This document shows, piece by piece, positions 7,939 to 50,717 of a stretch of DNA of 64,000 bases. The stretch lies in contig CANFWI010000003.1 of assembly GCA_947450675.1 (NCBI GenBank), positions 1-64,000 on the forward strand, given 5' to 3'. The position numbers and the translations under genes are program-made. This stretch comes from Comamonadaceae bacterium (GTDB taxonomy: Bacteria; Pseudomonadota; Gammaproteobacteria; Burkholderiales; Burkholderiaceae_C). The notes under the pieces were generated by a model. It was given only the letters and a program-made list of their open reading frames with translations. It was not told the origin of the DNA and ran no database searches. Position 1 is the stretch's first letter, and every line of letters begins with the position of its first letter.

Positions 7939-8014
7939 TGGTGGGACGTGCGGGGGTCGAACCCACGACAAACGGATTAAAAGTCCGCTGCTCTACCAAC
8001 TGAGCTAACGTCCC
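7939..8014 (-). tRNA. tRNA-Lys (TTT)
   Basis: Reverse complement GGGACGTTAGCTCAGTTGGTAGAGC...ctTTTaatc...GGTTCGAACCCCCGCACGTCCCACCA. Confidence 0.96.
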
Positions 8015-29201: not shown

Positions 29202-30896
29202 TCAAACGGCAGCAGCTTTGGCGTTGCGCGTGATGGCCGACAGAGTGCCGCGTGTGCTGATGACTTCCGGGTCCAGCATGATTTCAATCAGCGTGCCTTC
29301 AGCACGACTCAATGCCGCCAACAACTCAGGCTCAAATTCGGCTGTGCGTGTGATGCGCACGCCGGCATAACCATAAGCGCGCGCCAAAGCTGCAAAGTCA
29401 GGGTTCTTTAGGCGAGAACCACTTTCATGCTCGGGATACTCGCGCTCTTGGTGCATGCGGATGGTGCCGTACATGCCGTTGTTGAGCAACACGATGATGG
29501 TTTTGGCACCGTGCTGCACTGCGGTCGCCAACTCTTGGCCATTCATCAAAAAGTCGCCGTCACCGGCGATGGTGAAAACCACCCGCCCGGTGGTGATCGC
29601 CGCCGCAATACCCGCAGGCACACCGTAACCCATGGCACCCACAGTCGGCGCGAGCTGCGTTTTGTGGCCTTTGACGAGGCCGTGGTGTTTATAAAAGCGA
29701 TGCACCCAACTGGCGAAGTTGCCGGCGCCATTGGTCAGCACCGCGTCTTCAGGCAAATGCTTTTGCAGCAAACCCACGATGGCCGGCATGTCGACGTCGC
29801 CAGGCAGCGCTTGCGGCACCAAGTTGCCCAAGTAATCGGCATTGGCGGACGCTGTCCAAGCCTCCCACGCCACCGACACGGGCGCCGTCAACACTTCCAG
29901 TGAACGGGCCGCCGCGTTCATCGTGGCGTTGATGGCCAGGTCAGCCTGAAAGACACGATTGAGTTCTTCAGCACTGGCGTGAATATGCACCAGCTTTTGC
30001 TGCGGCTTGGGCGCTTCAATCAGCGTGTAATTCCCAGTCGTCATCTCGCCCAGACGCGGGCCGATGGCCAAGATCAGATCGCACTCTTTGATGCGTGCTG
30101 CCAGCTTGGGATTCAGTCCAATACCGACATCACCGGCGTACAGCGGATGGTGGTTGTCAAAGGTGTCTTGGAAGCGAAAAGCGTTGCCCACGGGCAGCTG
30201 CCAATTTTCGGCAAAGCGTTGCAGGGCTTGAGCGGCTTGGGGCGTCCAGCCACCACCGCCGGCAATCACCAATGGCCGCTTGGAGGCCAACAGCATTTCG
30301 CGCAGCGAGCGCAGAGCACCTGGGTCACTCCAAGCTTGCACAGCCTCGACCTTGGGCAAAGGTTTTGCGGCGGTCATTTCTGTCAGCATGTCTTCTGGCA
30401 AGACCAACACCACGGGTCCGGGCCGGCCATTCATGGCGGTGGCAAACGCCCGGGCGATGTATTCGGGAATGCGATTGGCGTCATCAATACGCTCGACGCG
30501 TTTTGCAAAACCCTTGGTGCTGGGGCCGAAAAAACTGGCGTAATCGACCTCCTGAAAAGCTTCGCGGTCACGGCAATCACTGGCCACGTCGCCCACCAGC
30601 AACACCATCGGCGTCGAGTCTTGAAAGGCCGTGTGCACGCCAATAGAGGCGTTGGTGGCGCCTGGGCCGCGGGTCACCATGCAGACGCCGGGCCGGCCGG
30701 TGAGCTTGCCATGGGCCTCAGCCATGAAGGCGGCGCCGCCCTCTTGCCGACAAATCACGAAGTCAATCTGGCCCTGACGCGCATGCAGCCCGTCCAAGAC
30801 CGCAAGATAACTTTCGCCTGGAACGCCAAAGGCGTGGGTGACGCCCTGTGCAATCAGGCAATCTACGAGAAGGTGGCCGGCAAGTTGTTTTGTCAT
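29202..30896 (-). CDS. Thiamine pyrophosphate-binding enzyme (acetolactate synthase-like)
   Basis: HAFGVPGESYLAVLDGL..EGGAAFMAEAHGKLTGRPGV; GDGDFLMNGQEL TPP motif. Confidence 0.9.
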   Translation of the reverse strand: MTKQLAGHLLVDCLIAQGVTHAFGVPGESYLAVLDGLHARQGQIDFVICRQEGGAAFMAEAHGKLTGRPGVCMVTRGPGATNASIGVHTAFQDSTPMVLLVGDVASDCRDREAFQEVDYASFFGPSTKGFAKRVERIDDANRIPEYIARAFATAMNGRPGPVVLVLPEDMLTEMTAAKPLPKVEAVQAWSDPGALRSLREMLLASKRPLVIAGGGGWTPQAAQALQRFAENWQLPVGNAFRFQDTFDNHHPLYAGDVGIGLNPKLAARIKECDLILAIGPRLGEMTTGNYTLIEAPKPQQKLVHIHASAEELNRVFQADLAINATMNAAARSLEVLTAPVSVAWEAWTASANADYLGNLVPQALPGDVDMPAIVGLLQKHLPEDAVLTNGAGNFASWVHRFYKHHGLVKGHKTQLAPTVGAMGYGVPAGIAAAITTGRVVFTIAGDGDFLMNGQELATAVQHGAKTIIVLLNNGMYGTIRMHQEREYPEHESGSRLKNPDFAALARAYGYAGVRITRTAEFEPELLAALSRAEGTLIEIMLDPEVISTRGTLSAITRNAKAAAV

Positions 30897-31364: not shown

Positions 31365-32600
31365 TCAAGCAGTCAAAAGCGCCGTCCGCCGCACACGCCG
31401 AACACTGAAGGCGCTGACGATCAAGACGCCTTGCACCATGGCCAAGCCGAGCAGCACGCCGCGGAAATTGCTGTGGTCCATCATCAATCCAAAGATCAGC
31501 GGCGACAGGGCCTGGCCAATGTCCAGCCCCGAATACACGACGCCGTAAACGCGGCCGGTGGCGTTGTCCGGCGTTGAGCGTTTGACCAACAGATCGCGTG
31601 ACGGTGCAGCCAAGCCGGACGAAAAGCCCATCAACGCAAACAGCACGGGCACCATGTTAGGTGAGGAGAAACTGCCGAAGGCCAAGGTCAAGGACATCAG
31701 CGCGGCAAAGCCAAAACCCAGACCCACAATCCGCTCGCAGCGTTCCGGGTTGGCGGCCAAAAAACCGCCGCTGACCATGCCGCAAGCACTGCCGATCATG
31801 AAAACGGTCAGGCACATGGCCACCAAAGACAGCGGCACATCATGCAAACGACGCGCCGCTTCGGGCGCAAAGGCCTGCACGATGCTCAAGCCGATGGCGT
31901 AGACAAAAAAGAAAGAAAAGCACATCCAGACCGCAGGGATTTTCAGGAACCCCAAGCTGCCTTCTGTGCCTAGCGTCGCCGACACCTTGGCAGGCGGCGC
32001 GGGAGGCAGCGTTAACTTGCTGCGGTTCAGAACCAACACAGCCAGCACGGCAAAGGCCACCAAAGCAGCCGCGGCCAACGCGATTCGCCATGAATACGCC
32101 AGTGTCAAGCTGACCACCAGCGCCGGAGACAATGCCCAACCCAAACTGCCCGTGATGCCGTGAACGCTGTAGGCGTGACCCAAACGCGGCACACTCACCT
32201 TGCGGTTGAGCAGCGTGTAGTCGACGGGGTGAAACACACCATTGCCAATGCCGGCCAAGACAGCAAAGCCGGCGAGCATCCAGTAACTGGTGCTGATGGC
32301 ATAGCCAAACGCCGCCAGACCGATCAGACTCAATCCCGCAAAGAGGATCGGCCGCGGGCCAAACCGATCAACGACAAAGCCGGAGATAGTCTGCACCGCA
32401 CAAGACACGACGAAAAAAATCGTCATCAAAAAACCAAGCTGGGCATAGTTGACACTGAACTCGTCCTTGAGCCAAGGAAACAGCGACGGCAGCAACAACT
32501 GGCTGAAGTGACTGACCATGTGCGCCAGGCCGACCAGTCCAATCACGCCGGCGTCACGGCTCAGCGGGACGCTGCTGTTCAAGGTAGGGGCTGTCGTCAT
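31365..32600 (-). CDS. MFS transporter
   Basis: 12-TM-like, VDRFGPRPILFAGLSL motif. Confidence 0.9.
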   Translation of the reverse strand: MTTAPTLNSSVPLSRDAGVIGLVGLAHMVSHFSQLLLPSLFPWLKDEFSVNYAQLGFLMTIFFVVSCAVQTISGFVVDRFGPRPILFAGLSLIGLAAFGYAISTSYWMLAGFAVLAGIGNGVFHPVDYTLLNRKVSVPRLGHAYSVHGITGSLGWALSPALVVSLTLAYSWRIALAAAALVAFAVLAVLVLNRSKLTLPPAPPAKVSATLGTEGSLGFLKIPAVWMCFSFFFVYAIGLSIVQAFAPEAARRLHDVPLSLVAMCLTVFMIGSACGMVSGGFLAANPERCERIVGLGFGFAALMSLTLAFGSFSSPNMVPVLFALMGFSSGLAAPSRDLLVKRSTPDNATGRVYGVVYSGLDIGQALSPLIFGLMMDHSNFRGVLLGLAMVQGVLIVSAFSVRRVRRTALLTA

Positions 32601-36362: not shown

Positions 36363-36962
36363 ATGAATATCCACCAAGTTTGCGTTAGCTACAGCCATGA
36401 GCACGACCGCTTTTTGGTACGCATCAACACCCGTAGTGAGGAAGAGGTCCGGTTGTGGTTCACCCGCCGATTGACCTTGGGGCTGCTGCCGCTGCTTGAA
36501 AAAGCATCGACCGAACAAATTTCGAGGCAAGCCAGTCCACCGAACCCAGCCGCACCAATGGACGAGCAGCGCCGACGGCTGCTAGAAAACTTCGAACAAG
36601 AAGCCGCCAGCTACCAAAGCGACTTCCAAACACCTTACCGCGAACAACTCACAGCGCTGCCGCTCGGGCCTGAGCCGCTGTTGGTGACGGAAGTCAAGAT
36701 GACAGCGCTCGCCGGTGGTGAGCTCGAACTCAACTTGCATGAGAAGCTCGCAGACAACACACGCCATTTGCATATCAAGCTGGACGCCCAGCTGACACGC
36801 GGCCTGGTGTCGTTGCTCAACCAAGCCTTGAGCACCTCGCGTTGGTTGGAAATCGAAAACGGTGTCTCGGTCAAAATCAACGGCGGTAAGGCATCACAAG
36901 CGCAAGAGCTTGAGCCGATGACTCTGGCGCTCGGCGCGGACAAGCCGCGTTACCTGAATTAA
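36363..36962 (+). CDS. Hypothetical protein (199 aa)
   Basis: Long ORF with coding-like composition; no family recognised with confidence. Confidence 0.6.
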   Translation: MNIHQVCVSYSHEHDRFLVRINTRSEEEVRLWFTRRLTLGLLPLLEKASTEQISRQASPPNPAAPMDEQRRRLLENFEQEAASYQSDFQTPYREQLTALPLGPEPLLVTEVKMTALAGGELELNLHEKLADNTRHLHIKLDAQLTRGLVSLLNQALSTSRWLEIENGVSVKINGGKASQAQELEPMTLALGADKPRYLN

Positions 36963-38227
36963 GCTTTCAGCGATTCAAGCGAAAATCCGGCCACCTGTTT
37001 GTAGTGGTCTGAAATCGCTCGCAACTCATCTTGACTGATGAGGTCGTCGATGTTTGAAAACGGCTGACCGCCACTCAGTTCGTCGGCCTTCATGATGATG
37101 AAGTCGGGTGGTGTCGACCGATTTGTGAGCACCACCTTGGCGGTCGGGGCAAGACGCAGTGTTTCGTAACTTTTGAGTGCCACCTGTGGATCGCTTGTTT
37201 TCGACAACTCATCCGCCAAGGTTCGAGCATCAATCAAGGCCTGTGCTGAGCCGTTAGAACCGCGCGGGTACATTGGGTGAGCCGCATCGCCCATGAAGGT
37301 GATGCGACCGAAAGTCCATTGCGCAACCGGATCTTTGTCAACCATCGGGTATTCGAGGATTTGTTCAGCGTTGGCTATCAACGCGGGCACATCAAGCCAG
37401 TCAAATTTCCAATCTTTGAAAATATCCAAAAAGTCTGCGGCATTGCCTGACTGGTTCCAGTCGTTCATCACGGCCGAATCACGTTGGATTTCTGCCATCC
37501 AATTGATAAGCTGATTGCCCTCTGCGTCAATGTTATCGACGATCGGATAAATCACCATCTTGCCGGTCTCGATAGAGCCCACCCGCATATAACTTTTCCC
37601 AGTCAAGATGGGCTTGTGCTTGGTCACGCCACGCCAAGTGTTGATGCCAGAGAAAGCCATCTTTTCGTCTGGGTAAAAATGCTTACGTATGGCGGAGTTG
37701 ATACCGTCACAAGCCACCACCACATCAGCACGCACAGAGGGTCGCACGGTGCCGGTCGCAGGATCGACAAAATGCACGGTCGCTCCGGTTTCGTCTTGGT
37801 CAACGCCTACACAGCGGTGACCGGTATGGATATGTTGCGCGCCAATCTGCGCCACAGTTTCGTCAAACAAGATGCGGTGCAACTTTCCTCGATGGATGCC
37901 AACCTCAGGTAATGCGTACCCGGCATGCCGCCCGCGTGGTTCACTGTAAATGTACTGACCGTAGCGGTTGAAAAATACACTCTCCAAGTTCTCAATCCCT
38001 GCTGCTTCGAGCTTGTCCTGCACGCCCAATGCAGCCAGTTCTCGCATGCCATGCGGCAAGAGTGTGATGCCCACACCCAACTCCCGGATCTCGGGAACCG
38101 ACTCGTAGACCTCGCAGCTGATGCCCTTGCGCTTGAGGCCCAGCGCCAGCGCCAAGCCGGCGATGCCGCCCCCAACAATAGCGATGTGCTTATTTTTGGG
38201 AGGGTTGATGATTGACTGTGTATTCAC
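36959..38227 (-). CDS. Flavin-dependent oxidoreductase (PhzS/salicylate hydroxylase-like FAD monooxygenase)
   Basis: IAIVGGGIAGLALALGLKRKG; FMGDAAHPMYPRGSNGSAQALIDARTLADEL. Confidence 0.88.
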   Translation of the reverse strand: MNTQSIINPPKNKHIAIVGGGIAGLALALGLKRKGISCEVYESVPEIRELGVGITLLPHGMRELAALGVQDKLEAAGIENLESVFFNRYGQYIYSEPRGRHAGYALPEVGIHRGKLHRILFDETVAQIGAQHIHTGHRCVGVDQDETGATVHFVDPATGTVRPSVRADVVVACDGINSAIRKHFYPDEKMAFSGINTWRGVTKHKPILTGKSYMRVGSIETGKMVIYPIVDNIDAEGNQLINWMAEIQRDSAVMNDWNQSGNAADFLDIFKDWKFDWLDVPALIANAEQILEYPMVDKDPVAQWTFGRITFMGDAAHPMYPRGSNGSAQALIDARTLADELSKTSDPQVALKSYETLRLAPTAKVVLTNRSTPPDFIIMKADELSGGQPFSNIDDLISQDELRAISDHYKQVAGFSLESLKA

Positions 38228-38301
38228 TGTGCGCTCCGGTTTGAATCGTTAGCATACACACAATCTATCATTTTTTTTGCCCTTTAAAAAATATCAACAA
38301 C

Positions 38302-39282
38302 TCAGTCAGCCGTGATGGCTTCGCGCTTAATCACAGAACCCCAACGGACATAGTCTTGCTTGACCGTGGTGGCGAGTTCCGACGTTGTCGAGGATGCAGC
38401 ATCCAGCCCAGCCTTGGCTAAAACAGCACGCACATCAGGCAATTTCATGATGGCTGCAATTTCGGCATTAAGACGATTGATGACAACTACAGGCGTGCGG
38501 TTCGGCGCAAAGAAGGCGTACCACATGTCGACGTTCACGTCTTTCACACCCAACTCCTGAAACGTGGCGACGCTGGGGGCTACCGGGTTTCGGGTGGGGC
38601 CGCCAACAGCCAGCGCAATCAGTTTGCCACTGCTGACAAATCCCTGCGCCACGTGAATGGGCAAAAAGCCAACCATCAATTCACCGCCCAGTAAATCAGT
38701 CACATAACCGGCAGTTCCTTTGTACGGAACATGCAACATTGACAGTTGAGTCTTGCTTTTGAGGAGCTCCATGGCCATATGGTGTGGCGTCCCAATACCA
38801 GGCGAACCGAAGGTCACTTCGCCTGGTTTAGCTTTCGCCATGGCGATGAATTCTTGAAGCGACTTGATACCAGTCTTGGGATTCGCGACCAACATCAAGG
38901 TGCCGTAGGCCGCCATAGAGACGGAAGAAAAGTCATTGACCGGATCGAAAGGCACGTTCTTATAAAGCTGTGAAGCCATGAGCATGGTGTTCGCGCCCAT
39001 CAGCATGGTGTAGCCATCAGGCGATGCCTTAGCCACCATGTCGGCACCAATGTTGCCGCTGGCGCCCGGCGTGTTTTGCACAATCACGGGTTGACCGAGA
39101 CGCTCGCTGAGTTTGGGGGATACCGTGCGGGCAATCGTGTCCATGCCTGTCCCAGGGGTAAATGGAACAACAATTTTGATGGTCTGACTCGGCCAAGTCT
39201 GTGCCTGGACACTGGTTTGCCCTAAGCCAAGCAGTGCCATGAAAAGTCCGCTTAGAAGGAAACGTAATTTTTGAATGCGCAT
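38302..39282 (-). CDS. Bug-type substrate-binding protein
   Basis: WPSQTIKIVVPFTPGTGMDTIAR...VIVQNTPGASGNIGADMVAK. Confidence 0.92.
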   Translation of the reverse strand: MRIQKLRFLLSGLFMALLGLGQTSVQAQTWPSQTIKIVVPFTPGTGMDTIARTVSPKLSERLGQPVIVQNTPGASGNIGADMVAKASPDGYTMLMGANTMLMASQLYKNVPFDPVNDFSSVSMAAYGTLMLVANPKTGIKSLQEFIAMAKAKPGEVTFGSPGIGTPHHMAMELLKSKTQLSMLHVPYKGTAGYVTDLLGGELMVGFLPIHVAQGFVSSGKLIALAVGGPTRNPVAPSVATFQELGVKDVNVDMWYAFFAPNRTPVVVINRLNAEIAAIMKLPDVRAVLAKAGLDAASSTTSELATTVKQDYVRWGSVIKREAITAD

Positions 39283-39290
39283 GATTTGCC

Positions 39291-40355
39291 TCAACGAATC
39301 TTAAAAACTGTTTCTGCATTCGTCTGAAAGAACATTTTCTTGTCTTCAGCGCTCATGGTCATGTTGTCTAGTGCAATGACTTCATCAACCTGATGCTGAT
39401 ATGGATAGTCCATCGCATAAAGGACGCGGTCAACACCCACCACCTGCTGTGCAAACTTGATAGCCGGCTCCCATGCCACACCGCTGTTGGTGATATAAAA
39501 GTTCTCGCGCAGGTAATCACTTGGTTTTTTCTTAATCGGCTTCATGCTGTCATAACGCTGAGACGCCACAGTTGCGCGGTGCATGTAATCAAGGCGATAC
39601 ATCCAGTACGGCAGAGCTTCGCCCATGTGCCCAATGATCATCTTGAGTCTCGGAAAACGGTCAAACACACCGGCGGTGATGATGCGCATGGCATGGAGCC
39701 CGGTCTCTACGCCAAAACCGTAGATTGCGCCGTCAAGGCCGCACTCTTGGAACGGTTGAAGCATGTTCTTCGGGAGCGAATTCGGGTGCAAGTAAATCGG
39801 CGTATCGTGGGCTTCAGCCGCGGCGAAAATATCCCAGAATTTAGGGTCGGACAAATACTCGCCCTGTGTGTGCGAGTTAATCACGACAGAGTGAATACCA
39901 AGTTTGTTGACACCGCGCTCAATCTCCTTAGCCGCTGCTTGTGGGTCTTGTGGCGCCACAGTCAGCATGCCGACGAAACGCGTCGGGTGGCGGCGAATAG
40001 CATCAGCCAAATAGTCGTTGGCGACTTGGGCATAAGCCACTGCGTCGGCCTTTTCCATCACCTGTACGCCGGGCGACGTCAGAGCGAGCACCTGCTTGTC
40101 AATGCCGCATTCGTCCATGTGCTGGATCCGCAACGTGTCCATGTCGGTCAGGCAGCGAATGATGTGCTGGGCACGAGCGCTGGGGCTGCTCATGTAAAAG
40201 CCCATCAAACCCCTGAAGCCAGGATCTGCATCCCCTTTTTCAAGGATCTTCTTATAGATATTGAGCATTTCTGGAGGGGCAAATGCCTCTTCTGTGGCGA
40301 TCCGCTGATAGGCGCTTGATTTTGGATGCACGGTTTTTTTCTCCGGTAAGTTCAT
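39291..40355 (-). CDS. Amidohydrolase-family decarboxylase, LigW (5-carboxyvanillate decarboxylase)-like
   Basis: RIATEEAFAPPE; INSHTQGEYL; GLDGAIYGFGVETGLHAMRI; GHMGEALPYWMYRLDYMHR; TNSGVAWEPAIKF; YAMDYPYQ. Confidence 0.82.
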   Translation of the reverse strand: MNLPEKKTVHPKSSAYQRIATEEAFAPPEMLNIYKKILEKGDADPGFRGLMGFYMSSPSARAQHIIRCLTDMDTLRIQHMDECGIDKQVLALTSPGVQVMEKADAVAYAQVANDYLADAIRRHPTRFVGMLTVAPQDPQAAAKEIERGVNKLGIHSVVINSHTQGEYLSDPKFWDIFAAAEAHDTPIYLHPNSLPKNMLQPFQECGLDGAIYGFGVETGLHAMRIITAGVFDRFPRLKMIIGHMGEALPYWMYRLDYMHRATVASQRYDSMKPIKKKPSDYLRENFYITNSGVAWEPAIKFAQQVVGVDRVLYAMDYPYQHQVDEVIALDNMTMSAEDKKMFFQTNAETVFKIR

Positions 40356-40403
40356 GAAAAAGTGATGGTTAAAGTGATCGGTTGATGTCGATATGCGGTC
40401 GTG

Positions 40404-41372
40404 TCAATTGGCTTTAATGTTGTTGTCAACGGCGAGTTGCCGCCAGACTGGAATTTCTAAGGCGATGATTTTGGAGAATTCTTCAGACGTATTGCTCATG
40501 GGAATGACAGACATGCCGGTCATTCTTTTCTGCACGTCTGGCATGGCGACGACTTTGGCAACGCCGTCCTCCAGCGTCTTGACGATATCGGCAGGCGTGC
40601 CAGCAGGTGCCAGCAGGCCGATCCATAGCGACGCCTTCAGGTCAATGCCAAGTTCCGTCAACGTTGGCACGTTGGGGTAGTCTTTCATGCGTGCGGCCGA
40701 CGTGACGGCCAAGGCCTTGACGCGACCGTTCTGCATGCCGATGAAAGCCGGACCGGCATCGGCCAGCGTCATCGTCACGTCGCCAGCCATGACCGCGGTG
40801 ACAGAGTCATTGGCGCCCTTATAGGGAATGTGCGTGAACTTCGCGCCGGTCTTTTTATTGAACAATTCAGTGATCAACTGAAAAGATGCCGAACTGGCGC
40901 CATAGTTGGCTTTGTCTGGATTTTGCTGTGACTGGCTGACCAGTTCTTGCACCGTTTTGGCTGGATTTTTGATGTTCACGAGCAACACCAAGGGTGAGTC
41001 GCTGACCCATGAAATAGGCATGAAATCCTGCGGCGCGTAGGGCAGCTTGGTGTAAATGGCATGATTGAAAATCATCGGACCGGGCGCGCCCATCATCAAG
41101 GTGTAGCCGTCTGCTTTGGCCTTGGCGACATAGGTGCTTGCCACAATCGCGCCTACGCTGGGGCGATTTTCAACGATCACCGGCTGGCCGAGGACCGCGG
41201 GTAATTTTTCCGACAAGATGCGGGCCATCGCATCGACGCCGCCGCCGGCGGAGTAACCCACCACGATGGTGATCGGTTTGGCGGGATAATCGGCCGCTGT
41301 GGCAGCAAGTGGCGTACAGCTCAGTGCAGCCGTCAAAAAATAGGCAAGTCGAGTCAGTTGTTTGATCCGCAT
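40404..41372 (-). CDS. Bug-type substrate-binding protein
   Basis: YPAKPITIVVGYSAGGGVDAMARIL...VIVENRPSVGAIVASTYVAKA. Confidence 0.92.
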   Translation of the reverse strand: MRIKQLTRLAYFLTAALSCTPLAATAADYPAKPITIVVGYSAGGGVDAMARILSEKLPAVLGQPVIVENRPSVGAIVASTYVAKAKADGYTLMMGAPGPMIFNHAIYTKLPYAPQDFMPISWVSDSPLVLLVNIKNPAKTVQELVSQSQQNPDKANYGASSASFQLITELFNKKTGAKFTHIPYKGANDSVTAVMAGDVTMTLADAGPAFIGMQNGRVKALAVTSAARMKDYPNVPTLTELGIDLKASLWIGLLAPAGTPADIVKTLEDGVAKVVAMPDVQKRMTGMSVIPMSNTSEEFSKIIALEIPVWRQLAVDNNIKAN

Positions 41373-41395
41373 TTTTGTCTCCTGGTTAAAACCGC

Positions 41396-43141
41396 TTATT
41401 GCAGCCCGATCTGCACATTGAGCACTGCGGCCTGTCCGGCATCCACGGCTTTCAGGCAACGAGCGATGGCCGCGTTGACCTCGCTGGGCTCACTGACACA
41501 TTCCCCGTAAGCACCAAAGGCCTCTGCGACTTTTTCGAAGTGTCTGTCTGGGCCTTGAAGGCGGGCTTGGAATTCATCGGCTGCAACTGCCGCACCAGCG
41601 GGATAGACCCGCAGCACAGCTTCTTTGACAGCTTGCCAGCCACCGTTGTCGAGCACCACGGTAAAAATCGGTAATTTGTAACGCTGTGCGGTGGCGTACA
41701 CCGAGGTCGGTGTTGAAAAGTGAAAGCCGCCGTCGCCGACGATCTGAACAACCCGCACCTTGGGATTGGCCAGTTGTGCACCGAGCGCCATGCCGCCGCT
41801 GTAGCCTAAGCCGCCGCCAGCACCGCACAGCAAGGTCAACGGCTGGCTGCGCGGGATCTGATTCAATACCGCAAAGGTGTTGCGAATGGCTTCGTTGATG
41901 ACGATGTCTTGCGGCGCAATGGCCGCGCCCAGCGCTGCGCAGACATAGGCCGCTGAAATCGCGCCGGTTTGGCCATGCTCAACCGCAGCTCGCGCAATAC
42001 CGGCCTTGCGCTCGCCAGTGCTGGCAACCCAGCTGTCGATGCGCGCAGAGACTTGTTGATGAAAAGCCGCATCAGCTTTGTCACGGACAATTTTGGCCAC
42101 CTGCCGCAGCACGGCACCGCAGTCGGCTTGCACGCGCATGTCCGTGGCAAAGCCCCACATCGGGAAATCTTTTTTGATAGTGTCGACGTCGATGTGCGTC
42201 CAGCGGGTGGCGCTGTTGACATGCACAAACTTAGGCAACCATGGCACGTCGACATCCAACAGCAGCCCAAAATCTGCAACAGCAACCGCCTTGGCTGGGT
42301 CAAAGCCACCAAAGCAAGGTGAGCTGCGGTCGATGCTCATGTGGCTCGGGCTGAACTCAAACACTTGAATGCCGCACAGCAGCGCCAGATCTTCCAGCGC
42401 TGCAACGGCATCCGCCTTGCGGCCGAGGTAAGAGGTCACCGCCACCGGACTGCTGGCCGTCATGAGTTGCGCTGCAATGGCCTGCGCGCGCTCGTCGTCA
42501 ATGCCGCCAGCCTGAACCGCGCCGTAGCGCTCGCCGCTGTAGCTTTGAACTTTGTCAATCGCCACGCTTTCAGCCAGTACTTCGCGCGGCAAAGTCAGGT
42601 AGACCGGGCCTTGCGGATCGCTCTGCATCACCGAGTGGCCGCGCCGCAAAACTTCTTTGGCAACCACGCCACTGGGCAAAGAATAATCCCACTTGACATA
42701 CGGACGCACCAGGCTGACCATGTCGAAAGGGTCTTGTACAAAATGGACATAGTTGTCGCGCGAACCCGGCAGTTCCCCACGCAGGGTATAAGGTGCTTTG
42801 CCGGCTATCAGCATCACTGGCAGGCGACCCCGAAACATGTTGTGCATGCCCATAGCAGCGTTGGCAGTCCCGGCGTCAACGTGCACCATGACGGCCTGGC
42901 CGCGGCCTGTGGTCGCCGCGTAACCTGCCGCCATGTGAATCGCGACGTTCTCATGCGGACATAACAACACTGCCGGGTGCAGGCGACCTTGCTGATCCCA
43001 GCGCGCCAGTTCCTCAATGATCGACACGTGGTCGGTGCCAAGGTTGGAGAAGACATAGTCAATGCCCAGTTCCGTCAGACCTTCGAGGAAATAATGCGCA
43101 CCGCTGTGAAGAGCGGCTGTGCTGGCGCTTGGCAGTGTCAT
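41396..43141 (-). CDS. Thiamine pyrophosphate-requiring enzyme
   Basis: DYVFSNLGTDHVSIIEEL..CPHENVAIHMAAGYAATTGR; VGDGGFHFSTPTSVYATAQRYKLPIFTVVLDN. Confidence 0.9.
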   Translation of the reverse strand: MTLPSASTAALHSGAHYFLEGLTELGIDYVFSNLGTDHVSIIEELARWDQQGRLHPAVLLCPHENVAIHMAAGYAATTGRGQAVMVHVDAGTANAAMGMHNMFRGRLPVMLIAGKAPYTLRGELPGSRDNYVHFVQDPFDMVSLVRPYVKWDYSLPSGVVAKEVLRRGHSVMQSDPQGPVYLTLPREVLAESVAIDKVQSYSGERYGAVQAGGIDDERAQAIAAQLMTASSPVAVTSYLGRKADAVAALEDLALLCGIQVFEFSPSHMSIDRSSPCFGGFDPAKAVAVADFGLLLDVDVPWLPKFVHVNSATRWTHIDVDTIKKDFPMWGFATDMRVQADCGAVLRQVAKIVRDKADAAFHQQVSARIDSWVASTGERKAGIARAAVEHGQTGAISAAYVCAALGAAIAPQDIVINEAIRNTFAVLNQIPRSQPLTLLCGAGGGLGYSGGMALGAQLANPKVRVVQIVGDGGFHFSTPTSVYATAQRYKLPIFTVVLDNGGWQAVKEAVLRVYPAGAAVAADEFQARLQGPDRHFEKVAEAFGAYGECVSEPSEVNAAIARCLKAVDAGQAAVLNVQIGLQ

Positions 43142-43264
43142 ATTTTGTCTCCTATTGGTGTCGTCATCGAACACATACTTGTTTTATCGCCCATCCTAAT
43201 TAACTTCGAATTGCATGACAATAGCCAATTTTCAAGATAAACCTTTTCCAGATCGCGATGAATC

Positions 43265-44227
43265 GTGGACACTCTTTCCAACCTCAAAGCCTTTGTAACC
43301 ACGGCTGATGCTGGTAGCTTTTCAGGTGCAGCGCGGCAATTGGGGCTGGTCCCGTCGGTCATTTCAAAACGCATTGACCAGCTCGAGTGGCTGATTCGTG
43401 CGCCGCTCTTCACGCGCTCCACGCGCAAACTGACGCTGACCGACGTCGGTGAGCGCTACTTGCACACTGTGCGCCAGGTGATCGCTCAAGTCGACGATGC
43501 GCTGGTCGGCATGGCGCGCGCCAGCGGTGAGTTGGAGGGACACATCCGCGTGAAACTGCCGACTACGCTCGCCATTTTGTACCTTAGCGACATCCTCAAT
43601 GACTTTATCAAAAGTCAGCCCAGAATCAGCATGGACATCGTTTTGGCCGACCGCTCTGTGAACCCCATTGAGGAAAGTTTTGACATTGCCATTGGTGCCC
43701 TGCCCGAGCTCTACGGGCGAGTTCAGGACAAACCACTGCGATTGATGAAGCGCTACCTGTGCGCCGCACCGGCCTATTTGGAGCGCATGGGTGCGCCACA
43801 ACATCCGGCCGACTTGGCTGAGCATGACTGCCTGGTGTTTACTACCTCCGGCGTGCGCTGGGAATTTCAGAGCCCGCAGGGGCTGACCGGCATCGACGTG
43901 CGCGCCAAACTGCGTACCAACGACGGACTTGCGCTGTGTAAAGCGACGATTGCGGGCACCGGTATCGCGGTCTTGGCGGACTACATCGCAGAAAGTGCCT
44001 TGGCTTCGGGCCAATTGGTGGAAGTCATGCAGCCTTATTCTGTTTCCGGAATTTGGCTGAAAGCCTTGGTGCCGACGAGCCGGCTTGAACTCCCGCGGGT
44101 GCGCATGCTGCTGGACTGGCTGGAGCAGAAACTCCAGTCCGCCGGCCCATGGGACAAAATACGCGACTCACCCCATGCTGCCGCGCCGCAGTCAGAAGCA
44201 CTCGCCACAACGGCTACCTCTCCATGA
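43265..44227 (+). CDS. LysR-family transcriptional regulator
   Basis: TLSNLKAFVTTADAGSFSGAARQLGLVPSVISKRIDQLE. Confidence 0.93.
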   Translation: MDTLSNLKAFVTTADAGSFSGAARQLGLVPSVISKRIDQLEWLIRAPLFTRSTRKLTLTDVGERYLHTVRQVIAQVDDALVGMARASGELEGHIRVKLPTTLAILYLSDILNDFIKSQPRISMDIVLADRSVNPIEESFDIAIGALPELYGRVQDKPLRLMKRYLCAAPAYLERMGAPQHPADLAEHDCLVFTTSGVRWEFQSPQGLTGIDVRAKLRTNDGLALCKATIAGTGIAVLADYIAESALASGQLVEVMQPYSVSGIWLKALVPTSRLELPRVRMLLDWLEQKLQSAGPWDKIRDSPHAAAPQSEALATTATSP

Positions 44228-44703
44228 CCTTGTTCAACGACCTTTCGCAGCTGTACACCCGACCGGGATTTCTACTCAGACGGGCCCATCAAATTTCAGC
44301 AGCCGTGTTTGAAGACGAATGCCGTAGTTTCGCACTGACGCCAGCCCAATTTGGAGTGCTGACTGTTTTGCGCGCATCCCCGGGGCTTGACCAATCGAGC
44401 CTAGCACGCGCTCTCGGTTTTGACAAAGTGACTGTGCTGCGTGTTTTGCGCGGCTTAGAAGAGCGCGGATTGGTCAAGCGATCACTGGCACCCGAAAGTC
44501 GACGCAACATTGCGGTTGAGCTCACACCAGAGGGCGAAAAGTTCTTGAAGGAGTCGCAAAAACCGGCGGAGCGCGCTTATGAGCGGCTGATGACGCCACT
44601 GTCTGCCGAGCAACAGTTGCAGTTGGTGGCTTTGTTACAGCAGCTGACCGAAGGCCTGGAAGAGCACGCTCGGGCGTCCTTCGTGCCGGCAGATCGAACG
44701 TAG
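44224..44703 (+). CDS. MarR-family transcriptional regulator
   Basis: LTPAQFGVLTVLRASPGLDQSSLARALGFDKVTVLRVLRGLEERGLVKRS; ATGA overlap with the LysR stop. Confidence 0.92.
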   Translation: MTLFNDLSQLYTRPGFLLRRAHQISAAVFEDECRSFALTPAQFGVLTVLRASPGLDQSSLARALGFDKVTVLRVLRGLEERGLVKRSLAPESRRNIAVELTPEGEKFLKESQKPAERAYERLMTPLSAEQQLQLVALLQQLTEGLEEHARASFVPADRT

Positions 44704-44731
44704 TCCAGAGATACCACTGAATGCGAGGCCC

Positions 44732-45670
44732 ATGAATATATCCATCAAGCAGTTGCGTGCGTTCGTCACTGTCGCCGACAGCCAAAGTTTCACCAAGGCA
44801 GCCAACACGCTGTGCTTCACCCAATCAGCGCTGAGTGTGCTCGTCAAAGAGCTTGAGGATGAAGTCGGTTTTCGGCTTCTGGACAGAACAACACGTCAAG
44901 TTGTACTGTCTGATTCAGGCAGAGATTTTTATCAACTTGCGCAAAAGTTGCTGGATGAATTTCAAGCTGTTATCCGGGATACATCGGACATCGCCATGCT
45001 CCGACGCGGTGTGGTTCGTGTCGGCGCAACAGAGGCCGTTGCCTCATCTCTTGTGGTCCCAGCCATCGCCGCCTATGACCGCAGCCAACCAGGCATCAAT
45101 GTTCGACTTGTGGACACATTGGTGTCTTCCATGTTCAATGCCCTTCGCAGCGGCGAAGTCGACTTTGTCATCGGTCCGGACTCCATCCAAGACTCACAGT
45201 TCGACACTGCGCTGCACATGGAGCCGCTGTTGAGTAACCCCTTTTTAGTCTGGAGTTTGCCGAGTCACCTTTTGGCCACTGGCCAAAAGGTGACGTGGCA
45301 AGAACTGTTGCGCCACGACCTGATCATCCCCACCATGGACTTTTCAACACAGCTCATACCGTTGGTCCAACAGCATCTCGGGAAGGAAGCTGTCGACCGC
45401 GCATTGACCCTGACAACGGCTACGCGTCGTCGAGTCACGAACATCACCACGGCACTGAGCATGGTCAAGGCAGGATTAGGGGTCACGATTGCGGCCGAAT
45501 ATGTCAGTTCACTCGCAATTGCCTTTGGTCTTGAAGGCCGCCCCCTTGTCAAACCCAGCCTCAAAAGAATAGTGACTTTGTACTCCCGCCAAGGCCGGGC
45601 ACTCTCGCCAGCGGCAGAGGCTTTTGCAGAATTTTTTCGTGGCTTTTTAAAGAACAGAAAAATTTCTTAA
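44732..45670 (+). CDS. LysR-family transcriptional regulator
   Basis: ISIKQLRAFVTVADSQSFTKAANTLCFTQSALSVLVKELE. Confidence 0.93.
   Translation: MNISIKQLRAFVTVADSQSFTKAANTLCFTQSALSVLVKELEDEVGFRLLDRTTRQVVLSDSGRDFYQLAQKLLDEFQAVIRDTSDIAMLRRGVVRVGATEAVASSLVVPAIAAYDRSQPGINVRLVDTLVSSMFNALRSGEVDFVIGPDSIQDSQFDTALHMEPLLSNPFLVWSLPSHLLATGQKVTWQELLRHDLIIPTMDFSTQLIPLVQQHLGKEAVDRALTLTTATRRRVTNITTALSMVKAGLGVTIAAEYVSSLAIAFGLEGRPLVKPSLKRIVTLYSRQGRALSPAAEAFAEFFRGFLKNRKIS
45264..45294. repeat. Perfect 14-bp-arm inverted repeat inside the LysR CDS
   Basis: gtcaccttttggcc-act-ggccaaaaggtgac. Confidence 0.95.
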
Positions 45671-46626
45671 GCTGGTTTGATGTTTGTTTTTTTAACAACC
45701 TGAGACCACAACTCAGACTCAGCTTTGGTCAAAGCGAGCAGCTCTGAGGCCGTTCCAGTTTTCAACAGCATGCCTTGCTTTGCAAAACTCTCTTTGACAC
45801 TTGGTTCATTGAGAGATTCGGTCACGGCTAGTCGATATTGCTCAGCCAGCGCCAAAGATATTTTGGGCGCAGCCCAAACCGAATACCAAGCATCGGCGTG
45901 AAAATTCTTCGCCCCCTGCTCTTGAAGCGATGGAATATCAGGAAAACTGGGATGCCGCTCACGCAATGAGCCGCCAATAATTTTTAAGCGACCGGAATCA
46001 CGCTGCGCAATGGCGATCTGAATCGGCAAGAACATGGCAGGTATCAGTCCGCCCAGCAAGTCGTTAATCGCAGGGGAAGACCCTTTGTAAGCGACATGTT
46101 CAAGATTTACACCCACGGACTGTTTCAGCAACTCCATGAACAAGTGATGGTGTGTACCATTGCCCGGTGAAGCATAAAACAACCCTTGCTTGGAATTCGC
46201 CCACACACCGAACTCATGCAAATTTTTAGCCGGGATGTCTTTGTGCACGGCCAACACAAAAGAAGTCGATGCAATTTGTGTAATCGGCGTGAAGCTGTTG
46301 ATGACATCAAAGTCGATCATTTTGTAGAAAAGAGGCAATGTCACCGTTGTCGCGGGAACGATCATGAGCGTGCCTAGATCGGTTGACTTGGCCACATAAC
46401 TCATACCGATCATGCCGGACGCACCGGCTTTGTTGTCGACCACATAGTCCAAGCCCAACTTGGCTTGCATGCTCGGCCCTATCGCGCGTGCAATGGTGTC
46501 CGGCGTTGTCCCCGGTGTGAGTGGTACCACCATGCGAATCAGTTTTTGCTGCGCCCGCAAAGCGGTCATCGACAAAAACCCTGCGACTCCCGTCGCGGCC
46601 AGTAAGGTTCTGCGTCGTAATGTCAT
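45667..46626 (-). CDS. Bug-type substrate-binding protein
   Basis: IRMVVPLTPGTTPDTIARAIGPSMQ...VDNKAGASGMIGMSYVAK. Confidence 0.92.
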   Translation of the reverse strand: MTLRRRTLLAATGVAGFLSMTALRAQQKLIRMVVPLTPGTTPDTIARAIGPSMQAKLGLDYVVDNKAGASGMIGMSYVAKSTDLGTLMIVPATTVTLPLFYKMIDFDVINSFTPITQIASTSFVLAVHKDIPAKNLHEFGVWANSKQGLFYASPGNGTHHHLFMELLKQSVGVNLEHVAYKGSSPAINDLLGGLIPAMFLPIQIAIAQRDSGRLKIIGGSLRERHPSFPDIPSLQEQGAKNFHADAWYSVWAAPKISLALAEQYRLAVTESLNEPSVKESFAKQGMLLKTGTASELLALTKAESELWSQVVKKTNIKPA

Positions 46627-46668
46627 TGAATATTCACCGTGTTGAAAGTCATCGGTTTCGCAAGCTTG

Positions 46669-47409
46669 TCAACTTGCTGAAGCCAACAGTTCGGCTTTTT
46701 CTAATTCCAGTGTTTTCAACATTTTGCTACGCACCAAATTCCAGAAGCGTCCGTAGTCTTGCCAGACAACATTCGCCGCCACCTCTTTGTCGTCCATGAA
46801 GGTAATAGGCCCCTGAGTTCGACCTGCCAGCAGCTCTGCTTGGTATTGCATCCGCGCATTTTGCTCCAGATAAACACTGCGACCGACGGCCACCTGCAGG
46901 CTTTCACCAACAACAATCGCACCATGGCCACGCATCAAGGCGGCAGGATGTCCGCCAAGCGTTTTGGCCAGGGCAGCGCCGAGGTAGGTATCACGGACCA
47001 GCATGTCGGAGCCCTCCTTGGCTTCGCGAATTTCCCAATTGGGAACCCCTTGCCCGATGAACGCAGACATGTGGAAAATCGGTCTTAAAGCAGCACCCGT
47101 ACAGGAAAAGGGGATGACCGAAGGCGAGTGGTTGTGCACCACGGCCATCACTTCAGGCCGTGCCTTATAAACCTCGCCGTGAATGAATCGCTCGTTCACT
47201 GGACTGCGTCCTTGGGCATCAATCGGCTCGCTGTTCATGCCGAACTCCATCATGTCGCCTTCAGTGACCAGTTCAGGCGGAATGGAGCGTGCCATCCAAA
47301 ATCGCTCCGGATGGGTCGGCGAGCGAACGCTGACGTGGCCATAGGCGTCGATGATCCCGTGTTCGGCAAGAATTCGATAAGCGATGGCCAGATCTTGGAA
47401 AAGATTCAT
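46669..47409 (-). CDS. Class II aldolase/adducin family protein (HCOMODA decarboxylase-like)
   Basis: GHVSVRSP; HGEVYKARPEVMAVVHNHSPSVIPFS; ALMRGHGAIVVG. Confidence 0.85.
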   Translation of the reverse strand: MNLFQDLAIAYRILAEHGIIDAYGHVSVRSPTHPERFWMARSIPPELVTEGDMMEFGMNSEPIDAQGRSPVNERFIHGEVYKARPEVMAVVHNHSPSVIPFSCTGAALRPIFHMSAFIGQGVPNWEIREAKEGSDMLVRDTYLGAALAKTLGGHPAALMRGHGAIVVGESLQVAVGRSVYLEQNARMQYQAELLAGRTQGPITFMDDKEVAANVVWQDYGRFWNLVRSKMLKTLELEKAELLASAS

Positions 47410-47439
47410 GATGTGTCTCCGTTTCTGTTTTTAGATTAT

Positions 47440-48402
47440 TCAATCCGAGACGAGCTTGCCGCGCGTCACCACCTGCGCCCAAAGTTTGACCTCGCTGCGC
47501 AGCAAAGTGTCAAGTCTCTCGGGTTTTCCACCAACCGGATCCAGCCCTTGTTTGGCCATGACCTCTTTGACGTCAGGAAGTGTCAGAAGGTGGTTGACCT
47601 CTGCATTCATACGGGCGATCAAAGCCGGTGGCGTTCCAGCAGGGGCGAACACGCCGTACCACGTTTCAACGTTCATATTGCCATAACCGAGCTCAACGAG
47701 TGTCGGCACTTGCGGAAATGTCGGAACCCGTTCACGACCCATGACCGCCAGCATCCGCATCTTGCCGCCCGCGGTTAGCACGGTGGCAGTTTGCATCGAA
47801 ACCACCGTCGCTTGAACATGACCGGCCACGAGATCGTTCAAAGCACCTGCAGAGCCTTTGTAGGGCACGTGCAACATGTTGGTGTTTGTTTCCTGCTTGA
47901 ACAATTCCATCGCCAGATGCTGAATGCCACCCGCACCGGGGGATGCATAGTTGAACTTACCTGGCTGTTTTTTGATCTCTTCTACAAACTCACGCACGTT
48001 GTTGGCAGGAAATTTATTGTTGATGACCAAGGTCATTGCGCTCGTTCCGAGCAAGGAAACCGGTGCGAAGCTCTTGATAGCGTCGTAGGGCAGTTTGGGG
48101 TTGATCGCACCGAGAGTACCGTGGGATGTCGCGGCAAACAGAAATGTATAGCCATCCGGCGCGGACTTGGCAACCGCCTCGGCGCCAATAATTCCGCTAG
48201 CGCCAGCCTTGTTGTCGACCACGACCGGAACATTCCAGCGCTGCGCAATTTTCTGACCCAACAGACGGGCTAACATGTCGCCTGTCGTTCCCGGCGTGTA
48301 AGGCACTACGAACTGAATCGCTCGTGCGGGATAGTCCTGCGCCTGCACCCATGGAGACACGACGCACGCGCATACAAAACTCAGGGCTAGATAAATTTTC
48401 AC
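47440..48402 (-). CDS. Bug-type substrate-binding protein
   Basis: YPARAIQFVVPYTPGTTGDMLARLL...VDNKAGASGIIGAEAVAK. Start codon uncertain (GTG). Confidence 0.9.
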   Translation of the reverse strand: MKIYLALSFVCACVVSPWVQAQDYPARAIQFVVPYTPGTTGDMLARLLGQKIAQRWNVPVVVDNKAGASGIIGAEAVAKSAPDGYTFLFAATSHGTLGAINPKLPYDAIKSFAPVSLLGTSAMTLVINNKFPANNVREFVEEIKKQPGKFNYASPGAGGIQHLAMELFKQETNTNMLHVPYKGSAGALNDLVAGHVQATVVSMQTATVLTAGGKMRMLAVMGRERVPTFPQVPTLVELGYGNMNVETWYGVFAPAGTPPALIARMNAEVNHLLTLPDVKEVMAKQGLDPVGGKPERLDTLLRSEVKLWAQVVTRGKLVSD

Positions 48403-50018
48403 TTTGAATGTCCGGTTGCAACGGACGCAACATGCGCAGGATCTTCTGGTGACGTCTGGCCACGCCAAACAATATGCATGTCAGGGCGAAGCAGAATCAA
48501 GTCGAATCCGTAAAGCTCGCGAGCGATCTGATCGGGCACGTCCAACACCGTCAGCGGTGCACCGCTTGCGCTTATAAACGTCTCCAGTTCTGCCGTATTC
48601 GCTTGTGTGCGACCGAGCTTCAGCAAGGTGAAGCCATCAACCGGCAATCGATCCTGCAGCGCGGTGCCGTCATCCAGCCAAACATGGGGAAGACGTGCGC
48701 CCGGCCACGTACTGGGAACGTATTCACGGAACAAATGCTCCGGCCCGCCAGGAATGTCCATGATGATCGGTGAATCAACATAGCGGTAACCCATTTCGGC
48801 ACCAACCATTTCATTGGTCTTACGTTGTTCAACATCCGCGACACTGGCGAGAATTTTTCGATTTTGAAGCCCTGTCGGCGTGTTATCGGCGATGTTGGAA
48901 CGGAACATCGAGCGCCACTTACGACGCCCCATCGACGCATAACGCGAAGCCCCAATGTTGCGCTCACCCACTTGGCGACGCTCATGTTCGTAGGAATCCA
49001 GAATTTTTGGACCTCCCCATCCTTGCAGGGTCGCGGCCAGCTTCCAAGACAGGTCGAACGCATCGCCAACGCCAGTGTTCATGCCGAGTCCTCCCGTCGG
49101 AATCACAAGATGAGCCGCGTCACCGGCAATGAACACCCGCTTGTCACGGTAGCGGTCGGCCAGCAGTAAATTTTGCTTCCATGGGGAACATGACAACATT
49201 TCATACTTGACCGGAAAACCGACCACTTTCTCAAACTGTGCCTTCATCTCTTCATCCGAGTTGACGACCGAATGCAACGTCCAATGAATCGTCGAATCCT
49301 GCATGATCAAGAATGAGGCCTTGTCATCGGCGACATGGTAATGACGTCCCCTTCCAGGGCCATTCCCAACAGGGATTCGATCAAACAATTCATCGCAACG
49401 AAATAGCGCTTGGCGCAACTCCATCAGCGCACCTTCGCCGCGCAGTTTGATGCCGAGCTGCTTACGAACAGGGCTGGCGCCGCCATCGCATCCGACGACA
49501 TAAGCGGCGCGAATGGTTTCCGCATTCCCGCCGGTCTTGACGCTTGCCGTGACCCCGTGTTCATCCTGATCGAAAGCCATGAATTCGGTCCCAAAGCGCA
49601 CACTCACCGACGGCAGACTTTCGGCGATCGACTTCAGAAGCGGCTCAATCGTGTATTGCGAGATCAACTGGTAAGGCTCCAGCGGACTGCTGCCGTCGTT
49701 GGTTGCACGGCAGTCAGCCTTCGCCTCTTCGACTGACGGATAACGCAGGCGCAGCAAGGGCGGCTGATTCATGCTCAAGACGACATAAACGTCCATCGGA
49801 CAATCACCACGCAGCCCCGCTTCTCGGATAGTGTCCGCAAGCCCGATGCGCCGAAACATCTCCATCGTACGGGCATTGGCACGTTCCATTTTCGGAAGAA
49901 ACTGGGGGGCGTTCTTTTGCTCGATCAAGATGCATTTGACACCGCGTTTACCAAGGTCAATGGCCAGCGTCAGGCCGACCGGACCAGCTCCGACGATAAG
50001 AACATCCGTCTTTTTCAT
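48399..50018 (-). CDS. FAD-dependent aromatic monooxygenase (PheA/TfdB/MhpA-like)
   Basis: VLIVGAGPVGLTLAIDLGKRG; RVFIAGDAAHLVIPTGGLGMNTGVGDAFDLSWKL. Confidence 0.9.
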   Translation of the reverse strand: MKKTDVLIVGAGPVGLTLAIDLGKRGVKCILIEQKNAPQFLPKMERANARTMEMFRRIGLADTIREAGLRGDCPMDVYVVLSMNQPPLLRLRYPSVEEAKADCRATNDGSSPLEPYQLISQYTIEPLLKSIAESLPSVSVRFGTEFMAFDQDEHGVTASVKTGGNAETIRAAYVVGCDGGASPVRKQLGIKLRGEGALMELRQALFRCDELFDRIPVGNGPGRGRHYHVADDKASFLIMQDSTIHWTLHSVVNSDEEMKAQFEKVVGFPVKYEMLSCSPWKQNLLLADRYRDKRVFIAGDAAHLVIPTGGLGMNTGVGDAFDLSWKLAATLQGWGGPKILDSYEHERRQVGERNIGASRYASMGRRKWRSMFRSNIADNTPTGLQNRKILASVADVEQRKTNEMVGAEMGYRYVDSPIIMDIPGGPEHLFREYVPSTWPGARLPHVWLDDGTALQDRLPVDGFTLLKLGRTQANTAELETFISASGAPLTVLDVPDQIARELYGFDLILLRPDMHIVWRGQTSPEDPAHVASVATGHSK

Positions 50019-50243
50019 TGCTTCTATCCATTTCCTGATGACCAAATTTGCAGCCTGTGGCGGCTAAAAATTTAGAATTGAGCCCCCTTTGGCTCATCAA
50101 TCAATGAATTAAACAGGCTTGTTGGAGAAACGACAAACAAATAATTTAAATGCATTTATACGAAATACAGATAAACAAAATGTCAGAAAAGCTAAGGAAG
50201 TAGAGCGCGGCTGACGTCTGTTGATCGTCCACGGAAACCGACC

Positions 50244-50717
50244 TCAAGCGTTAGTTGCTTGCAGACCCCAGCGGGCCAGCGCCGCATCGTCGCTGACGCG
50301 GGCATCGACCCAGCGGGCACCGGCAGGCGTTTCTTCTTTTTTCCAAAAGGGCGCTTGCGTCTTCAGGTAGTCCATGAGGAACTCACAGGCCTGAAAACTC
50401 TCGCCGCGGTGCGCCGAGGTGACGGCCACCAAGACGATTTGGTCTAGCGGCTGTAGCAACCCAACGCGGTGGATCACCCGGGCCGCGAAGATGTCAAAGC
50501 GCGCCATCGCCGCATCGATCATGGCCTCAATGGCTTTTTCGGTCATGCCCGGGTAGTGCTCCAGCTCCAGCGTGGCGACCTGGTCACCCGCGTTGCGGTC
50601 ACGCACCGTGCCGACAAAACTACACACCGCACCGACGCGTTTATCGCTTGCCCGCAGCGCCGCAATTTCGGTAGAAAGATCGAAGTCTTCGGTTTGAACG
50701 GCGACCCGGGCCAACAT
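50244..50717 (-). CDS. moaE: Molybdopterin synthase catalytic subunit MoaE
   Basis: GAVCSFVGTVRDRN; HRVGLLQPLDQIVLVAVTSAHRGESFQACEFLMDYLKTQAPFWKKE. Confidence 0.95.
   Translation of the reverse strand: MLARVAVQTEDFDLSTEIAALRASDKRVGAVCSFVGTVRDRNAGDQVATLELEHYPGMTEKAIEAMIDAAMARFDIFAARVIHRVGLLQPLDQIVLVAVTSAHRGESFQACEFLMDYLKTQAPFWKKEETPAGARWVDARVSDDAALARWGLQATNA

Follow-up and report, generated by a model that had tools for sequence, protein, structure and literature searches.

The 13 kb that separate a clpB-adjacent hypothetical gene from moaE in a freshwater-type Comamonadaceae bacterium (positions 36959–50018 of the window, here the whole 64,000-nucleotide stretch of contig CANFWI010000003.1 that was analysed) are two modules with different histories, not one unit. 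These two neighbouring gene sets probably trim unusual plant-derived aromatic acids into substrates for ring-cleaving enzymes whose genes lie elsewhere in the genome. The interval holds 12 genes. On the minus strand lie two tight operons: module B, in the order TPP (the gene for a thiamine diphosphate (ThDP)-dependent enzyme), TctC2, AH (a LigW-like amidohydrolase), TctC1 and FMO1 (a flavin adenine dinucleotide (FAD) monooxygenase), with spacings of 11–74 bp; and module A, in the order FMO2 (a second FAD monooxygenase), TctC4, ALD (a class II aldolase-fold protein) and TctC3, with spacings of −7 to 42 bp. The plus-strand regulator genes LysR1, MarR and LysR2 stand in between, the MarR start overlapping the LysR1 stop. 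The gene set and coordinates of the original prediction (two FAD monooxygenases, a LigW-like decarboxylase, a class II aldolase-type protein, a ThDP enzyme, four TctC proteins and three regulators) hold, and we confirmed its statement that no ring-cleavage dioxygenase, coenzyme A (CoA) ligase or ferredoxin is encoded between clpB and moaE; integrase, TctA and TctB genes are likewise absent from this interval.

Comparison of related sites separates the two modules. Among 26 same-genus genomes in which the state of the site was read, it is empty in 10 (G429, G418, G426, G414, G417, G422, G419, G401, G408 and G427), carries only the MarR/TctC1/FMO1 unit in 8 (G403, G407, G424, G415, G431, G410, G404 and G402; FMO1 was read directly in 7 of the 8), has module B in 3 (G425, G423 and G413) and a single TctC in 1 (G399), with other arrangements in 4. 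G403 has a moaE 96% identical to that of the window, yet only the minimal unit. For neighbourhood comparison, 80 loci encoding TPP relatives were collected. The nearest of these (L009–L015 and L073) have module B with AH; L010 and L013 have module A as well, and moaE directly follows MarR in L012, L014, L015 and L073. Against L012 and L177, homology ends at window position 44694 and resumes at 50246, and because of this clean gap module A is read as one 5.5-kb insertion between MarR and moaE. LysR2 (44732–45670, plus strand), the regulator that comes with module A, lies inside the inserted segment (~44695–50245). LysR1 (43265–44227, plus strand; PF00126 and PF03466), the module B regulator, accompanies TPP–AH in relatives, and MarR (44224–44703, plus strand; PF01047) is the constant partner of TctC1–FMO1. 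MarR is found beside FMO1 relatives outside the genus too, and Bordetella, Variovorax and minimal Polaromonas-type clusters show TctC1 and FMO1 as a pair. The order of the site states suggests that the locus may have been built up stepwise. A mobile element was considered and dropped: no integrase is among the genes and there is no nearby tRNA, the sole tRNA of the window lying at 7939–8014; no systematic search for repeats was made at the module borders.

It is the coherence of the set, as originally predicted, that is not supported, since relatives carry or lack module A and module B separately and FMO1, MarR and one TctC stand alone in at least seven same-genus genomes. All 13 kb could still serve a single carboxylated hydroxy-aromatic acid as one co-regulated pathway, as every enzyme suits aromatic-acid chemistry and a Pacificitalea cluster unites an FMO2 orthologue (64%), ALD (46%), a ThDP enzyme, an aldehyde dehydrogenase (ALDH), TctC, TctA and an amidohydrolase. 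However, this is unlikely given the independent occurrence of the modules and a LysR gene for each; moreover, the Pacificitalea ThDP enzyme and amidohydrolase are only ~30% identical to those of the window, and the former does not score as PRK08327.

We propose a modular, accreted funnelling locus, a reading that in our judgement stands at about even chances. Gene order, modularity, active-site residues and core pathways are observed, and from them we infer every reaction order and substrate. The base unit at the variable moaE–clpB site would consist of a regulator (MarR), a receptor (TctC1) and a gentisate-forming monooxygenase (FMO1), onto which LysR1 and TPP–TctC2–AH would have been added. 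The ThDP enzyme would decarboxylate an arylglyoxylate to an aldehyde, which an ALDH, encoded in the operon in one relative and presumably elsewhere in the source genome, would convert to the acid. AH would then strip the carboxyl group ortho to the phenolic hydroxyl, and FMO1 would hydroxylate the hydroxybenzoate that is left. In module A, a separate insertion, FMO2 and the HMPDdc/PhtC-like ALD would hydroxylate and decarboxylate a hydroxyphthalate-type dicarboxylate. The products would most likely enter a gentisate cluster on contig C25, or else the vanillate/protocatechuate pathways on contigs C5 and C51; the exit may be either gentisate, as the context of FMO1 suggests, or vanillate and protocatechuate, as LigW chemistry suggests.

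Such core pathways are present in the source genome. C25 carries a curated 3-hydroxybenzoate 6-hydroxylase (667 bits), a fumarylpyruvate hydrolase, an isomerase and a gentisate dioxygenase-like gene that scores below its cut-off. VanA (vanillate demethylase) with a reductase and a MarR gene, as well as a LigAB pair (protocatechuate 4,5-dioxygenase), are encoded on C5, PcaGH (protocatechuate 3,4-dioxygenase) on C51 and an intradiol dioxygenase on C4. The view that the locus is peripheral and funnels into a core pathway elsewhere is supported, as the gentisate cluster, LigAB, PcaGH and VanA lie in the same genome and FMO1 relatives occur inside gentisate operons.

FMO1 (36959–38227, minus strand) is a single-component FAD monooxygenase of the PRK07538 subfamily (NF005720, 556 bits, cut-off 400) whose closest solved structures are those of PhzS (2rgj/3c96). 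In two Bordetella genomes, one cluster combines gentisate 1,2-dioxygenase (566 bits against a cut-off of 442 in the one genome scored), fumarylpyruvate hydrolase, an FMO1 relative (52–53%), TctC1, an isomerase, ALDH, TPP, a reductase and TctC2. FMO1 relatives of 47–63% identity, often with MarR, also occur in or beside gentisate clusters of Sphingomonas parapaucimobilis, Caballeronia zhejiangensis, Polymorphobacter megasporae and Rhodococcus antarcticus, bringing to six the relatives that sit with gentisate genes. Since some of these lie inside gentisate operons, the likeliest point of entry is gentisate, and FMO1 is predicted to produce it or a similar para-dihydroxybenzoate. The FMO1 and TPP families also meet within one region in Polymorphobacter, and MarR, FMO1 and a PRK08327 gene adjoin in Agrobacterium cucumeris. 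In Salipiger abyssi, an FMO1 relative lies ~6 kb from genes for an alpha-hydroxy acid oxidase, an ALDH (49%) and a ThDP enzyme, a layout that looks like that of a mandelate-type chain. The link to gentisate is frequent but not universal, as no gentisate gene is annotated within 9 kb of the FMO1 relative in Neorhizobium petrolearium. FMO1 resembles known peripheral gentisate pathways (3-hydroxybenzoate 6-hydroxylases of the NagX/MhbM/XlnD type) in being a single-component FAD hydroxylase found beside ring-cleavage genes in relatives; unlike these, it belongs to PRK07538, fails the curated 3-hydroxybenzoate 6-monooxygenase family (NF006021, 155 bits against 459 required) and has its candidate ring-cleavage genes on another contig.

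The product of TPP (41396–43141, minus strand, with the start corrected to the ATG at 43141) falls in the PRK08327 equivalog (NF006203, 649 bits, cut-off 456) and is predicted to be an arylglyoxylate (benzoylformate-type) decarboxylase. Three features show no variation in 81 sequences: the ThDP Glu, the GDG...N motif and the residue corresponding to His70 of benzoylformate decarboxylase. The Ser26 position of that decarboxylase is Thr in TPP, and the His281 position shifts between alignments. When an AlphaFold model (mean predicted local distance difference test score 82) was used in a structure search, benzoylformate decarboxylases and formolase variants took ranks 1–42, followed by acetohydroxyacid synthase at similar E-values; we take these matches as support, not proof, of the predicted activity. 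A benzoylformate decarboxylase and an ALDH act together on lignin aryl-C2 fragments (PMC9811514, PMC7760541). As in the known benzoylformate decarboxylase clusters (mdlC, bzf and the 4-hydroxybenzoylformate pathway of R. jostii), the ThDP enzyme of relatives is accompanied by an ALDH, which adjoins TPP in 29 of the 80 loci; the island differs from them in the enzyme family, in Thr at the Ser26 position and in having TctC instead of a major facilitator superfamily (MFS) transporter or porin. Most of the 80 loci have a TctC gene after TPP; its counterpart here is TctC2 (40404–41372, minus strand; PF03401, 211 bits). A plasmid search for close TPP relatives (E ≤ 1e-100) returned none.

Could TPP instead be a carboligase or acetolactate-type enzyme, with module B handling a non-aromatic acid and AH and FMO1 acting on something else? 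The nearness of acetohydroxyacid synthases in fold score would fit this, as would the ketopantoate-reductase-like gene beside TPP in 8 of the 80 loci. Invariance of the benzoylformate-type His70 and the placement of TPP next to ALDH, FAD monooxygenase and gentisate genes argue against it, and we regard this option as very improbable.

Under the proposed funnelling scheme, the reaction order is suggested by the operon of the most informative relative, G423 (L182), where LysR1 is divergent from ALDH–TPP–TctC2–TctC2–AH–TctC1–FMO–FMO1. This gene order would correspond to 2-oxo acid decarboxylation, aldehyde oxidation, non-oxidative loss of a carboxylate ortho to a hydroxyl group, and hydroxylation. 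Each half of this order has a precedent of its own: benzoylformate decarboxylase with an ALDH, as above, and the ALDH FerD with LigW in the conversion of 5-formylferulate (PMC11323797, PMC12997858). The divergent LysR1/TPP intergenic region of the window (43142–43264) contains a block upstream of TPP/ALDH that is kept in five relatives and in L182.

AH (39291–40355, minus strand) is predicted to be a metal-dependent ortho-hydroxybenzoate decarboxylase of the amidohydrolase superfamily. It is 58% identical over 340 residues to Novosphingobium LigW (4inf/4qrn), in which Glu19, His188 and Asp314 are the metal ligands and Arg58, Phe212, His241, Arg252 and Tyr317 line the active site (PMC6031855). 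All eight are retained in the alignment (E22, H190, D316, R61, F214, H243, R254 and Y319), so the LigW-like label given earlier stands. LigW Tyr317 is Phe in gamma-resorcylate decarboxylase, where the Arg58 segment was not aligned, and Tyr in AH. AH is thus of the Tyr317 rather than the gamma-resorcylate type, and a candidate for Mn-dependent decarboxylation of 5-carboxyvanillate. The enzyme is rare: of 399 genomes sampled from the order, 2 have it at E ≤ 1e-90, the source genome included. AH relatives have an ALDH gene beside them in L089 and within their operon in L182. A picolinate-type pathway was dropped because AH fits LigW better than other solved decarboxylases, PicC itself not having been compared. 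Separately, a LigW-like gene (53%) in L139 (G137:C85) lies beside genes for an acyl-CoA synthetase, crotonases and an acyl-CoA dehydrogenase-like protein, neighbours that suggest a possible CoA-dependent route for a LigW substrate.

These features raise the alternative that module B is a 5-carboxyvanillate-type lignin route, in which 5-carboxyvanillate arises from a 5-carboxylated aryl-C2 fragment through TPP and a dehydrogenase, AH yields vanillate, and VanAB with LigAB or PcaGH finish, FMO1 being an unrelated older resident. AH keeps the LigW active site, including the residues absent from gamma-resorcylate decarboxylase; VanA, LigAB and PcaGH are encoded in the genome; and FMO1 is found without AH and TPP. 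LigW also works after an ALDH in Novosphingobium (PMC11323797). The island resembles the FerD–LigW system for 5-formylferulate/5-carboxyvanillate of Sphingobium SYK-6 and Novosphingobium aromaticivorans in its LigW-type decarboxylase with the same active site, which acts there on an ALDH-made acid, and differs from it in having a ThDP enzyme upstream, FAD monooxygenases after it, no PcfL, LsdD or LigXYZ and no ALDH in the operon. However, neither of the two LigB-family matches in the source genome (94% complete) is like LigZ, the dioxygenase of the biphenyl route: one lies beside a LigA-type small subunit (protocatechuate 4,5-type) and the other looks like YgiD/DODA. The biphenyl lignin (DDVA) pathway was dropped on this ground. 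In addition, every complete copy has FMO1 in one operon with AH, or else a different FAD monooxygenase in its place (L015 and L073). On this evidence, we consider a 5-carboxyvanillate route possible but distinctly less probable than the funnelling scheme. In L015 and L073 (about 15.2–16.9 kb), the gene in FMO1's place after AH–TctC1 encodes a PRK06126-like FAD monooxygenase (30–31% to FMO2), possibly a non-orthologous replacement.

Several observations weigh against the proposed scheme. Known LigW chemistry yields vanillate or ferulate, feeding protocatechuate and not gentisate. The curated 3-hydroxybenzoate 6-hydroxylase already in the genome would make FMO1 redundant as a second gentisate former, or place it on a different substrate. 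TPP and benzoylformate decarboxylase share only ~20% identity, the His281 equivalent of TPP is ambiguous, and acetohydroxyacid synthases are nearly equal in the fold search. Finally, the operon in the window has no ALDH gene, so this step would have to come from elsewhere in the genome, where nothing exceeds 38% identity to the ALDH of L182 (full-length query). Other dehydrogenases are reported to substitute partly for FerD (PMC11323797).

In module A, FMO2 (48399–50018, minus strand, most likely starting at the ATG at 50018) is a class A FAD monooxygenase with a C-terminal domain, of PRK06126 (NF004780, 519 bits, cut-off 445) and RebC/TfdB/HbpA-like. ALD (46669–47409, minus strand; PF00596) is a predicted decarboxylase of the class II aldolase fold related to HMPDdc (Mlr6791) and PhtC, with 2z7b by far its best solved relative (153 bits). 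Its E73, H92, H94 and H162, a Glu plus His-x-His plus His metal/catalytic set, are invariant in 10 homologues. It shares fold family and metal-site residues with HMPDdc/PhtC but lies far below the PhtC 3,4-dihydroxyphthalate decarboxylase equivalog (NF053537, 78 bits against 200 required), and its partner is a monooxygenase of the RebC/TfdB group. Known substrates of HMPDdc and PhtC are hydroxy-dicarboxylates with the hydroxyl next to the lost carboxylate, from which we propose that module A acts on a hydroxyphthalate-type acid. In Pacificitalea and Sinorhizobium, an ALD relative is the neighbour of an FMO2 orthologue (64–68%). TctC4 (47440–~48405, minus strand; PF03401, 246 bits) is a conserved partner of ALD: the pair recurs in L134, L135 and L138 at 53–58%/55–63%, adjoining gentisate dioxygenase in L135 and L138. 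A phthalate-like cluster on contig C34 of the source genome (L140, G000:C34:3000-19000) has a second class II aldolase paralogue (44–45%) and TctC genes, together with what by appearance are a Rieske oxygenase, a reductase, a dehydrogenase and a Pht5-like protein.

There is no new class of system here: the locus would work as known funnelling pathways do, and it stands out as a variant by its combination of genes and by two uncharacterised families. We found no identical described cluster in the open-access papers searched. An undescribed pathway is conceivable but unproven, as each enzyme class has a characterised relative. More tentatively, PRK08327 ThDP enzymes, PRK07538 monooxygenases and MarR may make up a so far uncharacterised pathway from (hydroxy)arylglyoxylates to gentisate that recurs in Alpha- and Betaproteobacteria; the window would carry a version of it in which a LigW-type decarboxylase deals with carboxylated substrates. 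PRK08327 ("thiamine pyrophosphate-requiring protein") and PRK07538 ("hypothetical protein/flavin-dependent oxidoreductase") are widely annotated and would gain a concrete, testable role in aromatic-acid metabolism; if true, this would improve the annotation of many freshwater Burkholderiales genomes. The site itself offers a housekeeping-flanked chromosomal position at which catabolic modules seem to have been added one after another, and a single genus shows its empty, minimal and extended states.

The remaining receptors are both orphans: TctC1 (38302 to about 39279–39294, minus strand; PF03401, 237 bits), of the tripartite-tricarboxylate type and periplasmic, and TctC3 of module A (45667–46626, minus strand; PF03401, 179 bits). 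A tripartite tricarboxylate transporter would have TctA and TctB with TctC, and the island holds TctC only. Because the source genome (3.06 Mb in 97 contigs) has 114 TctC matches, the four island genes are weak evidence for anything specific. This receptor load is very large for 3.06 Mb and is accompanied by 17 amidohydrolase-2 matches. Promoter and terminator scans gave matches at chance level. The operator GTTWGCATGCWAAC, guessed from minimal clusters, has 3 matches in the window against 1.0 by chance; as it is not enriched, no MarR operator is claimed.

On the clpB side, the backbone includes a 199-aa protein (36363–36959, plus strand) that matches no Pfam or NCBIfam family above cut-off; it is kept at the otherwise empty site of G429 (L151) and missing in others. 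Across clpB, a second ThDP enzyme with all three TPP-enzyme domains (29205–30896, minus strand) adjoins an MFS transporter gene (31368–32600) and is retained in the close relative G403 (L176).

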